Source of the DNA: Akkermansia muciniphila
Lineage (GTDB): Bacteria; Verrucomicrobiota; Verrucomicrobiia; Limisphaerales; SXTU01
Assembly: GCA_945874145.1 (NCBI GenBank)
Contig: CAMCFN010000040.1
Location: forward strand, 1-37,044
Length of the DNA: 37,044 nt
Direction of reading: 5' to 3'
The position numbers and the translations under genes were made by a program. The notes below the pieces were generated by a model. The model did not search any database. It was not told where the DNA came from and worked only from the letters and a program-made list of their open reading frames with translations. Shown in pieces: positions 25,491 through 29,621 of this stretch (position 1 is the stretch's first letter; each line of letters starts with the position of its first letter).

Positions 25491-28196
25491 TCACCCAAAC
25501 AAATCCATCTGCGGGTTCGCTTCGACTAGCTTGAGCTTCTCGCGGTCTTGCTGACGGCGCGAGGTCTGGCGCACGGTGCCTTCCGGCGTGAGTTCGCTGT
25601 CTTCGAGGTTGCGGAGGATGACTTTGGCACGCTCCAGAACTTCCTTGGGCACGCCGGCGAGCCGGGCGACTTGGATGCCGTAGCTCTTGTCGGTGCCACC
25701 CTCGACGATTTTGCGCAGGAAGATGATCTGGTCGTGCCACTCGCGGACGGCGACGTTGTAGTTGCGCAGGCGCGGCATCCGCGCGGCGAGTTCGGTCAGC
25801 TCGTGGTAGTGCGTGGCGAAGAGGGTCTTCGCGCCGACTTGGTTGTGCAGATGCTCGACGATGCTCCACGCCAGCGACAGGCCGTCGAAGGTGCTCGTGC
25901 CGCGCCCAATCTCATCGAGGATGATGAGGCTGCGGGCGGTGGCGTTGTTGAGGATGTTCGCGGTCTCGCTCATCTCGACCATGAAGGTGCTCTGCCCGCG
26001 CGCGAGGTCGTCGCTCGCGCCGATGCGGGTGAAGATGCGATCCACGAGGTCCACGCGCGCGGACGCGGCGGGAAGGAAGCTGCCGGTGTGCGCGAGCAGC
26101 GCGAGCAGCGCGACCTGGCGGATGTAGGTGGACTTGCCGGCCATGTTTGGGCCGGTGATTAACCCGATCTGAGGGAATGAGGGATGGGGGATGGGGGATG
26201 GCGCGGCCGGAGCGCGGCCTTCAGGCCGCTTCAGCGCACTTTCGCCGACGGACGTTGAAGCGGGCTGAAGCCCGCGCTCCGAGGTCACAGCGGCCAACTC
26301 GGTGTCGTTCGGCACGAAGCGCTCTTCGGTCAGGGCTTGGTCGAGGACGGGGTGGCGTGCGTCGCGGAGGATGATCTGGCCAGCGTCGCAGACTTCGGGG
26401 CGGGTGTAGTTGAAGTGGCGCGCGGTCTCGGCGAAGCACGCGAGCACGTCAAGGTTTGCAAGTGCGGCGGCGGTTTGCTGGATGGCGGCGAGGCTGCCGA
26501 TGACTTCCTCGCGCACGCGGAGGAACAGCTCGTATTCCAGCTTCATTGCGCGCTCCTCCGCGCCGAGGATTTTGCCCTCCATCGCCTTCAACTCCGGCGT
26601 GATGAACCGTTCGCCGTTCGCGATGGTCTGCTTGCGGATGTAGTCGGGGGGGACCTTGTCGAGGTTCGATTTGGTGATTTCGATGTAGTAGCCGAAGACG
26701 GAGTTGAACCCGACTTTCAGCGACGCGATGCTGGTGCGCTCGACTTCCTTCTGCTTGAGCTGGGCAATCCAATCCTTGCCGCCGCGAGATGCGGCGCGGA
26801 GTTCGTCGAGGTTCGGATCAAAGCCATCGCGGATGACTCCGCCTTCCTTCAACGCCAACGGCGGCTCGTCCAAGATGGCGCGGGCGATGAGCTCGACGAG
26901 CGCGGGGAGTTCGGTGAGCTGGGCGGTGAGTTCCGCAAGTAGGACAGGCGTCCCGCCGGTCTCTCCATCTGACTTCGCTTCCGCCAAGGCGGGGAATGAA
27001 GACGAAAAGTTAGAACGCAGGCTGGAAGCCTGACCTACTTGGAGGAGCGTCGCTTTCAACGCAGGGATCTGCTCCATCGCCAGCCGCAGCGCGTGGAGGT
27101 CGCGGCCGTTGCCGGTGCCGACGGAGAGACGGCTGACGGTGCGTTCGAGGTCGCGGACTTCGGCGAGCTTCACGCGGAAAGCTTCGAGCGCCGCACCGTT
27201 CGCAAGCCACGACTGCACGGCGGCTTGTCGGCGGCGAATCGGTTCCACGGCGGAGAGCGGCTGCGTGAGCCAGTTGCGCAACAGCCGCGCGCCCATCGGC
27301 GTGACGGTGCGGTTCAGCGCGCCGTAGAGGGCCGTGTTCCTAGGGGCATCGCGGTGGAGTGGTTCGAGGATTTCCAGGTTCCGAAGCGTGGTGCTGTCGA
27401 GCACGAGGAAATCGCGGCATTGATAGAACGTGATGCGCGTGAGGTGCTTCACGTCGCGGCGCAGGTGCTGCGTGAGGTAATGCAACGCCGCACCCGCCGC
27501 GCCCGTGGCGGCCACGCGGCCCTTCAAGCCGAAGCCATCGAGCGCCGCGACCTTGAAATGCTCGCGCACGGTGAAGATGGCCGTCTCCGGTGCGAAGACC
27601 CAGTCGTCGTGGCCGATGAGGATGCCTGGCGCGCCCTGCAGCAACGTGCGGAGCGAAGAGGTTTCGCCAGGGTAAATCGTTTCCGCCGGACGCAGGCGCT
27701 CCAGTTCGGTGAGCAGCTCGGTGTCGCTCTCGGTCTCCGTGGTGCGGAAATCGCCGGTGGTCAGGTCCACGACTGCGATGCCGGTGACTTTTCCGGTGGG
27801 ATACACGGCGGCGAGGAAGTTGTTCCGCTCCGCGGCGAGCAGGCGCTCATCGAAGTGCGTGCCGGGCGAAAGGATTTGCGTGACCTCGCGTTTGACTAGC
27901 TGGCCGGGGCGGGCTTCCTCGACCTGGTCGCACACGGCGACCTTGCGGCCCGCGCGGAGGATGCGCGCGACGTAGCTGTTGAAGGCGTGGTGCGGGATGC
28001 CGCACATCGGGATGACGCCGCGTTTGGTGAGCGCGACGTTGAGGAGCTGCGCGCCGGCGATGGCGTCGTCGAAAAACATTTCGTAAAAATCGCCGAGGCG
28101 GAAAAGCAGCAGCGCGTCCTTGGGCAGCTCGCTTTTGATGCGGCGATACTGCGCCATCATGGGCGTGAGCTGTGGTTCAGGAGCGTCGGTGGACAT
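25491..28196 (-). CDS. mutS: DNA mismatch repair ATPase MutS with two in-frame repeat insertions
   Basis: The 901-residue protein keeps the mismatch-contact motif GDFYEMFFDDA near residue 35. The connector and core are intact, as is the ATPase: Walker A ITGPNMAGKST near residue 685, then GASDDLARGQSTFMVEMSETANIL, Walker B IILDEIGRGTSTFDGLS and FATHYHELTEL. It ends QMDLFG. It detects mispairs and recruits MutL; no mutL is in the window. It is about 50 residues longer than E. coli MutS (853), mostly because of two segments that read as dispersed repeats: residues about 386-420 (GQASSLRSNF...GETGGTPVL) and about 637-675 (ERGLQPAST...SPIPHPSF). The rest of the frame is uninterrupted. Confidence 0.95.
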   Translation of the reverse strand: MSTDAPEPQLTPMMAQYRRIKSELPKDALLLFRLGDFYEMFFDDAIAGAQLLNVALTKRGVIPMCGIPHHAFNSYVARILRAGRKVAVCDQVEEARPGQLVKREVTQILSPGTHFDERLLAAERNNFLAAVYPTGKVTGIAVVDLTTGDFRTTETESDTELLTELERLRPAETIYPGETSSLRTLLQGAPGILIGHDDWVFAPETAIFTVREHFKVAALDGFGLKGRVAATGAAGAALHYLTQHLRRDVKHLTRITFYQCRDFLVLDSTTLRNLEILEPLHRDAPRNTALYGALNRTVTPMGARLLRNWLTQPLSAVEPIRRRQAAVQSWLANGAALEAFRVKLAEVRDLERTVSRLSVGTGNGRDLHALRLAMEQIPALKATLLQVGQASSLRSNFSSSFPALAEAKSDGETGGTPVLLAELTAQLTELPALVELIARAILDEPPLALKEGGVIRDGFDPNLDELRAASRGGKDWIAQLKQKEVERTSIASLKVGFNSVFGYYIEITKSNLDKVPPDYIRKQTIANGERFITPELKAMEGKILGAEERAMKLEYELFLRVREEVIGSLAAIQQTAAALANLDVLACFAETARHFNYTRPEVCDAGQIILRDARHPVLDQALTEERFVPNDTELAAVTSERGLQPASTSVGESALKRPEGRAPAAPSPIPHPSFPQIGLITGPNMAGKSTYIRQVALLALLAHTGSFLPAASARVDLVDRIFTRIGASDDLARGQSTFMVEMSETANILNNATARSLIILDEIGRGTSTFDGLSLAWSIVEHLHNQVGAKTLFATHYHELTELAARMPRLRNYNVAVREWHDQIIFLRKIVEGGTDKSYGIQVARLAGVPKEVLERAKVILRNLEDSELTPEGTVRQTSRRQQDREKLKLVEANPQMDLFG
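26172..26286. repeat. Double-hairpin palindrome plus GGGGATG tract inside mutS
   Basis: Arms at 26209-26233 and 26256-26280 are 25-base inverted repeats differing at two positions. Each arm is itself a hairpin (GCGGCC TTCA GGCCGC and GCGGGCT GA AGCCCGC). Next to it, 26172-26200 is a G-rich GGGATGGGGGATGGGGGATG tract. The element is read through in frame by mutS just upstream of the Walker A loop. Confidence 0.85.
26937..27040. repeat. 104-bp element with 13-bp terminal inverted repeats inside mutS
   Basis: The ends AAGTAGGACAGGC (26937-26949) and GCCTGACCTACTT (27028-27040) are inverted repeats with one mismatch. Internal CAGGCT TCC AGCCTG forms a hairpin on the minus strand. It is read in frame by mutS as GQASSLRS...GETGGTPVL. 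Similar GTAGGTCAGGCTTCCAGCCT sequences are common intergenic repeats in this lineage (from memory). Confidence 0.8.
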
Positions 28197-28371
28197 CGCG
28201 GACGCGACGATACCGGCAAAAAAAAATCGCGCGAAGTGAAACTTTGTCGTGACGCGATGGGGGCGAATCAGCTAATTCATTGGCCATCAGCCAACATTCA
28301 CAACGTGTTCGCCAGATTTTCGGAACTTATTCCAACGCACGCTTGCGTGCGTTGAAGGGAGGTGAGTAGCA
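28197..28371. promoter_or_regulatory. Divergent region mutS/microgene, with 5' hairpin and strong RBS
   Basis: The region separates the divergent mutS and the 22-codon gene. AACGCACG CTTG CGTGCGTT at 28334-28353 is a perfect 8-bp hairpin. Directly after it comes GAAGGGAGGTGAGTAGCA, with an AGGGAGGTGA Shine-Dalgarno about 7 bases before the ATG, stronger than any other RBS noticed in the window. A poly-A run lies at 28218-28226. No clear -35/-10 pair was found. Confidence 0.65.
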
Positions 28372-28440
28372 ATGGCCGCCAAGAAACCTGCAGCAAAAAA
28401 GCCCGCCGCGAAGAAACCCGCAGCGAAAAAGAAGAAGTAG
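28372..28440 (+). CDS. 22-residue Lys/Ala/Pro-rich microprotein (histone H1-tail-like)
   Basis: ATG 28372 opens a 22-codon frame ending TAG: MAAKKPAAKKPAAKK, then PAAKKKK. It consists almost entirely of a PAAKK pentamer repeated three times, as in histone H1 tails and chlamydial Hc-like or AlgP-like proteins. Evidence that it is real: a near-perfect Shine-Dalgarno seven bases upstream, a 5' hairpin, a 7-bp hairpin right after the stop and a strong terminator at 28463-28498, all fitted to this frame. It would be about 2.2 kDa and strongly basic, so nucleic-acid or polyphosphate binding is a reasonable inference. It is too short for usual gene-calling cut-offs. Alternatively the transcript acts as a small RNA. 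Confidence 0.75.
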   Translation: MAAKKPAAKKPAAKKPAAKKKK

Positions 28441-28459
28441 TCATTTCCCTGTGAAATGA
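28441..28459 (+). other. Hairpin directly after the microgene stop
   Basis: TCATTTC CCTGT GAAATGA is a perfect 7-bp stem whose first base follows the TAG. It may protect the 3' end or act with the terminator just downstream. Confidence 0.6.
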
Positions 28460-28462
28460 AAG

Positions 28463-28498
28463 GCCCCGCCGGGCATCGCCCGGCGGGGCTGTTTTTTT
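28463..28498 (+). terminator. Strong rho-independent terminator after the microgene
   Basis: A perfect 12-bp stem (GCCCCGCCGGGC / GCCCGGCGGGGC) with an ATC loop is followed by TG and seven T residues (28492-28498). It ends the microgene transcript and may also act on the convergent agmatine deiminase transcript. Confidence 0.92.
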
Positions 28499-28562: not shown

Positions 28563-29621
28563 TCAAGCTGGCTCCTGCTGGCTGATGCAGTGGAAGCTGC
28601 CGAGTCCCCAGATGAGTTCGGTGGAGTCAATGCCCACGACGCGGTGTTTGGGAAATTCATGCTGCAGGATGTCCAGCGCTCGCTGGTCGTTCGCGTGGCG
28701 GTAGGTGGGCACACAGACGAGGCCGTTGGCGAGGTAGAAGTTCGCGTAGCTGGCGGGCAGGCGCTGGCCGTCGTATTCCACGCGGCCGGGCATGGGCAGT
28801 TCGACCACGCGCAACGGCTGGCCATCCTGATCCTTCATCGTGCGGAGGCGATGCAAGTTCTCCTGAAGCAACTTGAAGTTCTCGTCCGCCGGATCTTCCT
28901 CGATCACGGTCACGACGGTCGTGGGGCTGACGAAGCGGGTGAGGTCGTCAATGTGGCCGTCGGTGTCGTCGCCCACGATGCCATCGCCGAGCCAGAGGAT
29001 GTGAGTGACGCCGAGGAAGTCCTTCAGGTGTTGCTCAATTTGCGTTTTGGTGAGGTGTGGGTTGCGGTTGAGGTTGAGCAGACACGCTTCCGTCGTCAGC
29101 AACGTGCCGCAGCCGTTCACTTCGATCGAACCACCTTCCATCACGATGCCGGGCGAGAAGAGCGGCAGGCCGCGCAGCTTCGCGACGTGCTGAGGAACGG
29201 CGTCGTCGAGGTCGAAGGGCGGATATTTGTTGCCCCACGCGTTGTAACCCCAGTCCACGATGGCACGCTCGTGTTTCCCGCCGTGCTCGCGCGTCAGGAA
29301 GATCGGCCCGTGGTCGCGGCACCACGGCTCGTAGGCGGGGGAGTGGTGGAAGCGCACGCGGTCGAGCGGCACCTTGCGGTCGACGAGGAGGCCACGCACC
29401 CAGGCCTCCTTCTCGGCGTTCCAGACGTTGATGTTGACTTCCTCCACGGTGACGAGGTGGCGGATGAATTCGGCATAGACATCTGGCACGGTCTCGTATT
29501 TGTCCGGGAAGCTGATACCCTCGGGGCGCGGCCATGTAAGCCATGTGGAAACGTGCGGTTCCCACTCGGCGGGCATGCGGTAGCCAAGGGCGGCGGGCGT
29601 GGAGGCGGTTGCGATAGCCAT
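28563..29621 (-). CDS. aguA: Agmatine deiminase / peptidylarginine deiminase family
   Basis: The 352-residue protein begins YRMPAEWEPHVSTWLTWPRP, the typical opening of this guanidine-modifying family (PF04371). Catalytic elements are PWCRDHGPIFL (Asp), MEGGSIEVNG, GDDTDGHIDDLTRFV (catalytic His) and the C-terminal GSFHCISQQEP with nucleophile Cys345. It hydrolyses agmatine to N-carbamoylputrescine in polyamine synthesis. No carbamoylputrescine amidase gene is in the window. Length is standard. It is divergent from the pelC-like gene across about 120 bases. Confidence 0.92.
   Translation of the reverse strand: MAIATASTPAALGYRMPAEWEPHVSTWLTWPRPEGISFPDKYETVPDVYAEFIRHLVTVEEVNINVWNAEKEAWVRGLLVDRKVPLDRVRFHHSPAYEPWCRDHGPIFLTREHGGKHERAIVDWGYNAWGNKYPPFDLDDAVPQHVAKLRGLPLFSPGIVMEGGSIEVNGCGTLLTTEACLLNLNRNPHLTKTQIEQHLKDFLGVTHILWLGDGIVGDDTDGHIDDLTRFVSPTTVVTVIEEDPADENFKLLQENLHRLRTMKDQDGQPLRVVELPMPGRVEYDGQRLPASYANFYLANGLVCVPTYRHANDQRALDILQHEFPKHRVVGIDSTELIWGLGSFHCISQQEPA

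Follow-up and report, generated by a model that had tools for sequence, protein, structure and literature searches.

A micro-gene in the gap beside mutS

The window, meaning the whole 37,044-nucleotide stretch of DNA analyzed here, is a single contig from a draft genome of 4.58 Mb and 82% completeness. On its minus strand lie mutS (25491–28196), which encodes MutS domains I–V, and a gene of the PF04371 family (Porphyromonas-type peptidyl-arginine deiminase; 28563–29621), presumably an agmatine deiminase gene. The window's MutS is 73% identical to that of an uncultured Verrucomicrobia subdivision 3 bacterium, the best named match among records from which very near relatives may be absent. Alone in the 366-nt gap between these two genes, on the plus strand, is a micro-gene of 22 codons and a TAG stop (28372–28440). 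Its divergent neighbor is mutS; the deiminase-family gene reads towards it and lies outside the unit.

The frame opens with an ATG at 28372, closes with the TAG at 28438–28440 and is conserved in relatives; upstream of the Met it stays open for V-A only. The product, MAAKKPAAKKPAAKKPAAKKKK, has 22 residues, 10 of them lysines, and after the first Met contains only Lys, Ala and Pro, laid out as AAKK, three PAAKK units and a final KK. A codon listing shows that its repeat units use different synonymous codons. Profile searches with the peptide return no Pfam or NCBIfam match, which makes it plausible that standard annotation misses the gene.

The frame is enclosed by expression signals on the same strand. 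A Shine-Dalgarno sequence, GGAGGTGA (28358–28365), ends 6 nt before the ATG and matches the complement of the 16S rRNA 3ʹ end over an 8-nt run. Just upstream of it is a perfect 9-bp hairpin, CAACGCACG-CTTG-CGTGCGTTG (28333–28354), with a CTTG loop. Directly after the stop comes a 7-bp hairpin, TCATTTC-CCTGT-GAAATGA (28441–28459), followed by an intrinsic terminator (28462–28498; terminator scoring) with a stem of 12–13 bp at 28462–28490 and seven T at 28492–28498. The original prediction had described a tiny peptide of three PAAKK units with a Lys tail, together with a near-consensus Shine-Dalgarno, a perfect 5ʹ hairpin with a CTTG loop, a hairpin immediately after the stop and a 12-bp terminator with seven T; the peptide and each of these signals are borne out, and the observation as a whole is confirmed.

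The terminator stem also scores on the minus strand, with a weaker tail, and in that direction might end the deiminase-family transcript. Since the plus-strand open reading frames farther upstream (e.g., 27987–28355) lie antisense to mutS, the terminator on the plus strand probably serves the micro-gene. Between the mutS start and the micro-gene, a 26-bp block, GCGCGAAGTGAAACTTTGTCGTGACG (28229–28254), is nearly identical in an alignment of nine close copies of the locus. No sigma-70-like promoter is recognized around this block or the micro-gene; the block is a probable promoter or operator region of mutS, the micro-gene or both. An inverted repeat, GGAA-CTTA-TTCC (28322–28333), is located just before the 5ʹ hairpin and could form a second stem or an operator. 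The same or a similar repeat is seen in several close copies, one of which has AGAA/TTCT in place of GGAA/TTCC.

Conservation of the reading frame within the genus

The window's family is represented by 11 genomes, all of one genus. DNA searches and the start pattern place the unit beside mutS in all eight genomes in which mutS is readable (8/11 overall), and in each of the eight the MutS match starts on the opposite strand, 152–177 nt before the ATG. The encoded peptides, among them MAAKKAAAKKPAAKKPAAKKKK, MATKKAPAKKAAAKPAAKPAAKKAAAKKGK, MAAKKKAAKKKKK and MAAKKKAAKKTAKKK, have 22 residues in G000 and G004, 30 in G005, 15 in G009 and G010, 14 in G001 and 13 in G003 and G007. A ninth close copy, encoding MAAKKKAAKKKGKK, comes from G460, a genome of another family. 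In G002, G006 and G008, two of which are more than 90% complete, no MutS N-terminus was found; either there is an assembly gap or mutS has truly been lost along with the micro-gene.

Differences among the nine close copies fall largely on third codon positions. Over 36 pairs and 477 aligned codons, positions 1, 2 and 3 carry 34, 31 and 208 differences, and a peptide-guided alignment, which in low-complexity repeats favors low pN, gives pS 0.66, pN 0.073 and pN/pS 0.11. Seven further groups give ratios of 0.06, 0.05, 0.11, 0.00, 0.17, 0.00 and 0.29, the eight groups having been chosen by the author out of the loci. Ungapped pairs of equal length behave similarly, with differences by codon position of 1/0/9 (window and G004), 0/1/9 (G003 and G007) and 0/0/3. 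The third-position excess is weaker in a DNA-guided alignment beyond codon 5 (80/66/135) and slight in ungapped pairs with shifted repeats (5/5/6 for L183/L185; 21/20/30 for L176/L177).

Neither loss of the frame in relatives nor conservation of an RNA without its codons, the outcomes against which the original prediction was to be checked, is seen: frame and amino acids are kept in these alignments, and synonymous sites vary freely. Judged by these comparisons, 28372–28440 is a genuine protein gene, conserved in many related bacteria. This bears on whether the frame could have arisen by chance in an intergenic gap that happens to hold a terminator. Five other short open reading frames of the window also have a Shine-Dalgarno run of at least 7 nt (six with the micro-gene), so a strong Shine-Dalgarno is by itself no proof of a gene. 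However, a chance frame would not be expected beside mutS in 8/8 genus genomes with its amino acids kept and its third positions free, and this explanation, rejected on conservation and codon evidence, is the least probable of those considered here.

Distribution across the order

The search of relatives finds the same kind of peptide encoded across the order. In the 320 genomes of the order that were searched, the start pattern occurs at 80 places in 79 genomes, and its reversed form in 2/320, which agrees with the earlier claim that such a density of signals is unlikely by chance. Lys-rich proteins are encoded at 68 of these places (67 genomes); the other 12 are not Lys-rich (11, together with L170, which was judged a miss). 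Matches number one per genome, G697 excepted, and extra Lys-rich matches to a looser pattern were left out of the counts.

The neighboring genes provide a second route to the gene. For mutS and for a PolB-type 3ʹ-5ʹ exonuclease (PF10108), 30 genomes each were chosen, nearly all from the 241 pattern-negative ones. MutS was matched in 25 of the first 30, and the gene is present at mutS in 5 (three with GTG starts); at 19 of the 25 loci, mostly in pattern-negative genomes, no gene was found there, and one more is cut by a contig end. Some genomes with an empty mutS locus carry the gene elsewhere. Exonuclease loci of 29 pattern-negative genomes hold the gene in 7, of which 6 are new and one had been counted already.

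Family f2 of the order had seemed from the first patterns to lack the gene, a view overturned by later searches in which 12/49 genomes have peptides of 20–36 residues, such as MATKKAKKPAAKKPAAKKKK. For these peptides, putative orthologs of the micro-protein, the start was taken as the last ATG before the motif, and 30 of 36 places were read. Altogether, at least 90 of the 320 order genomes have a similar gene (67 by pattern, 5 at mutS, 6 at the exonuclease and 12 in f2); in the remaining 230, these searches do not demonstrate it. In a wider sample of the phylum, the pattern occurs in 9/387 genomes, the window's included. Of the eight other matches, L108 (81 aa) and perhaps L110 were judged alike. 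L110, on the reverse strand of G239, reads MATKKKAVKKCTKGKCGSKKKK, a similar micro-protein with a strong Shine-Dalgarno and two cysteines.

Two sets of sequences underlie the figures given below. The 70-locus set consists of 63 pattern places, the 5 loci found through mutS, L108 (same phylum, other order) and L031 (a named record). It omits the Lys-rich L149, L152 and L153 (masked bases) and L156 and L164 (composition filter), as well as L029, which is near-identical to L175. The 68-protein composition set is without L108, L031, the duplicate L188 and four open reading frames cut by contig ends, gains five exonuclease-side peptides, and excludes the f2 peptides and G543.

Across the 70 loci, mutS is located just upstream in 34 and the exonuclease gene downstream in 44, with both in 24; 16 have neither of these nor the deiminase gene, some of them on short flanks. 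The named record L031 encodes an 82-aa protein between mutS and the exonuclease gene, and L029 a 25-aa protein placed, by eye, in the same way. In the window's genome, the PF10108 gene is on another contig, its place after the micro-gene being taken by the deiminase gene. Shared neighbors on both sides, with one match per genome, speak for a single orthologous gene whose length varied although its location did not. The 22-codon form is a short version of a gene whose products span 13 to 134 aa and whose neighbors recur. At eight loci with no mutS nearby (L119, L120, L124, L130, L131, L138, L139 and L142), the product of the co-directional upstream gene begins like MNLD.LYSELTLKT.AKL.LVVLDGLGD; we take this protein to be a cofactor-independent phosphoglycerate mutase.

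Conservation of the expression signals

Shine-Dalgarno runs measure 5–11 nt in the 70 loci (8 in the window), compared with 2–5 for the window's 21 large open reading frames, whose starts were set mechanically and may be wrong. The form GG[AG]GGTGA is found at the same place in 9/9 aligned close copies, the window's included. This conservation is partly built in, as the search pattern required GGTGA and fixed residues 1–5 for 63/70 loci; among the 11 non-f2 genomes found through neighbor genes, 10 have a GGTGA-type Shine-Dalgarno, the exception being G543, whose start is ambiguous. The 12 f2 peptides (L297–L323), unlike the 70 loci, have A-rich leaders without a Shine-Dalgarno, and the idea of a strong Shine-Dalgarno as the conserved core was dropped.

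RNA folding is likewise strong in the window and uneven beyond it. A 206-nt stretch folds better than 200/200 shuffles (z −3.8). In the nine close copies, the 5ʹ hairpin has 89.2% of alignment cells paired and three pairs changed on both sides, a covariation equaled by 9/500 shuffles (without kinship correction). Only the window's copy among the nine beats 95/100 shuffles by itself, so support for the hairpin within the genus rests on these compensatory changes. A clearly stable 5ʹ fold is found in just 21/70 loci, and the hairpin was rejected as a family-wide feature. The post-stop hairpin is absent, by eye, from some genus copies. In 61/70 loci, the 90 nt 3ʹ of the stop are more stably folded than at least 95/100 shuffles; five of the nine others had too little sequence.

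These structures raise the question of whether the RNA is the product: a regulatory small RNA, equipped with the 5ʹ hairpin and the terminator, in which the frame is secondary, as in a dual-function RNA. A compact 5ʹ hairpin, a second hairpin, a terminator and the compensatory changes just described, uncorrected for kinship, would all suit such a molecule. However, Rfam gives no match at gathering scores in the window, conservation acts at the level of codons, the 5ʹ region is strongly folded in only the 21 loci and members reach 134 codons. Moreover, the f2 leaders bear little resemblance to the others although the type of peptide is the same, which suggests that the peptide rather than the RNA signals is kept and that the function sits in the peptide. 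An RNA product is therefore very unlikely, and as the sole product it was rejected.

A leader peptide, whose run of lysine codons would stall ribosomes or sense charged tRNA-Lys, is slightly less likely again. It would account for a strong Shine-Dalgarno followed by dense AAA/AAG codons, yet the micro-gene has its own terminator, the next probable gene runs in the opposite direction, and by sequence no co-transcribed gene lies downstream. Nor do the long Ala/Pro/Lys forms, which reach 134 codons, resemble leader peptides, and translation-linked control of this kind was rejected on these grounds.

Length, composition and a minimum of basic residues

The 68 proteins of the composition set range from 13 to 134 aa, with 42 at no more than 25 and 45 under 30. 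Lysine makes up 46% of residues, alanine 35% and proline 7%, and in 66/68 proteins two adjacent basic residues close the chain or stop one residue short of its end. No protein of the set has fewer than 7 basic residues (Lys/Arg): all 21 proteins of 13–16 aa hold 7–10, with a mean of 8.5. Shorter proteins are richer in lysine (length against basic fraction, Spearman −0.52, p 4.5e-6, without kinship correction), and the five proteins above 90 aa are as basic as the shortest (0.58). In the 45 proteins of at least 20 aa, an average 15-residue window contains 6.5 basic residues, and the last 15 residues and the richest window contain 7.8 each. The lysine excess of the short forms is therefore small, 8.5 against 7.8. 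Together, these figures lend moderate support to the view that a minimum number of charges is kept by selection.

Work on oligolysines gives a sense of scale. According to the accessible part of one study, K8 forms complexes with plasmid DNA, but K16 and longer chains form more stable ones, and the same oligolysines give no stable packaging of siRNA (PMC4991294). As far as that text goes, eight lysines would lie close to the minimum for packing DNA, and a 13-residue peptide would bind weakly.

Proposed function

The micro-gene most probably encodes a stand-alone polycation of the histone H1-tail type that binds DNA or another polyanion, as a small and abundant nucleoid component beside HU; we put this reading at roughly 60%. 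A short mRNA would start in the mutS intergenic gap, carry the 5ʹ hairpin and the strong ribosome-binding site, encode 22 residues with 10 lysines and end at its own terminator. The very basic peptide, presumably disordered or loosely helical, would bind DNA by charge with no sequence preference, possibly also RNA or polyphosphate, and probably covers DNA or some other anionic polymer. It is the composition of the peptide that suggests binding to DNA or RNA. Free gain and loss of repeat units would account for the spread in length (13 to 134 aa), with the number of lysines held above a minimum.

A different partner than the chromosome is an unlikely alternative that deserves weight: polyphosphate granules, or the ribosome or RNA, to which the product would attach as a very small, basic accessory. 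The composition gives no means of distinguishing one polyanion from another, the genus already has ordinary HU, and AlgP, an H1-like protein with KPAA repeats, associates with polyphosphate granules according to the accessible text of PMC9239181. Against this, the recurring neighbors are mutS (34/70) and the PolB-type exonuclease (44/70), though neighbors need not share a function, and free variation in length from 13 to 134 aa argues against a fixed position on the ribosome.

If the nucleoid polycation reading is correct, a protein of the H1-tail type has been whittled down to 13–22 residues and still has its own gene across many species. Because such genes are short and of simple sequence, gene callers and similarity searches probably miss them, and part of bacterial chromatin or of the handling of polyanions may have gone unnoticed. 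A literature search, mainly of titles and abstract openings and with subscription papers mostly outside its scope, returned no description of such peptides. The lengths from 13 to 134 aa would also form a natural series on which to measure the charge requirement of a disordered basic tail. A bolder proposal, which we put forward tentatively and would sooner doubt than accept, is that these order-wide minimal polycations, down to 13 residues and 7–8 lysines, act as the smallest known stand-alone proteins of chromatin type, a gene-encoded counterpart to polyamines in which the number of charges is kept rather than sequence or length.

Comparison with known basic proteins

Mono-cistronic genes for small proteins are familiar in bacteria, with a short mRNA and their own ribosome-binding site and terminator. 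The micro-protein differs from their products: it is a polycation of low complexity, free to vary in length but with a minimum of lysines. HU proteins with lysine-rich tails have a basic tail composition like that of the micro-protein. However, the micro-protein contains no HU domain (PF00216; no Pfam match), and separate HU genes are present in 11/11 genus genomes.

The micro-proteins share lysine-rich, length-variable repeats with chlamydial Hc2 (hctB, PF07382) and the Hc2-like proteins of Bordetella, Burkholderia and others. In Chlamydia trachomatis, Hc2 measures 165–237 aa and varies in length by gain or loss of units, according to the accessible part of PMC2848022, whereas members here measure 13–134 aa and 45/68 are under 30. 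The 68 proteins have the Lys/Ala-rich, length-variable repeats that mark the Hc2/H1-like families (PF07382, NF038052, NF038053), and none of the members searched reaches the curated cut-offs of these profiles. An 84-aa member scores below threshold, at 16.9 bits against a cut-off of 40 for Hc2 (PF07382) and at 17.7 against 80 and 10.5 against 135 for the NCBIfam H1-like models, including that of Burkholderia; an 82-aa member and the window peptide give no match. Because the sequence is of low complexity, it does not decide whether there is common descent with the Hc2 and AlgP families.

AlgP of Pseudomonas aeruginosa has, in the part of PMC9239181 available, KPAA-type repeats and an H1-tail-like composition, as do the micro-proteins. 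Its repeat region of 154 aa belongs to a C-terminal domain that follows an N-terminal one (PMC9239181, same portion). Here, by contrast, the tail stands alone, as a 22-codon frame preceded by V-A only and with no N-terminal domain. By analogy, the micro-protein would work like Hc2 or the AlgP tail, yet it passes no family model of either.
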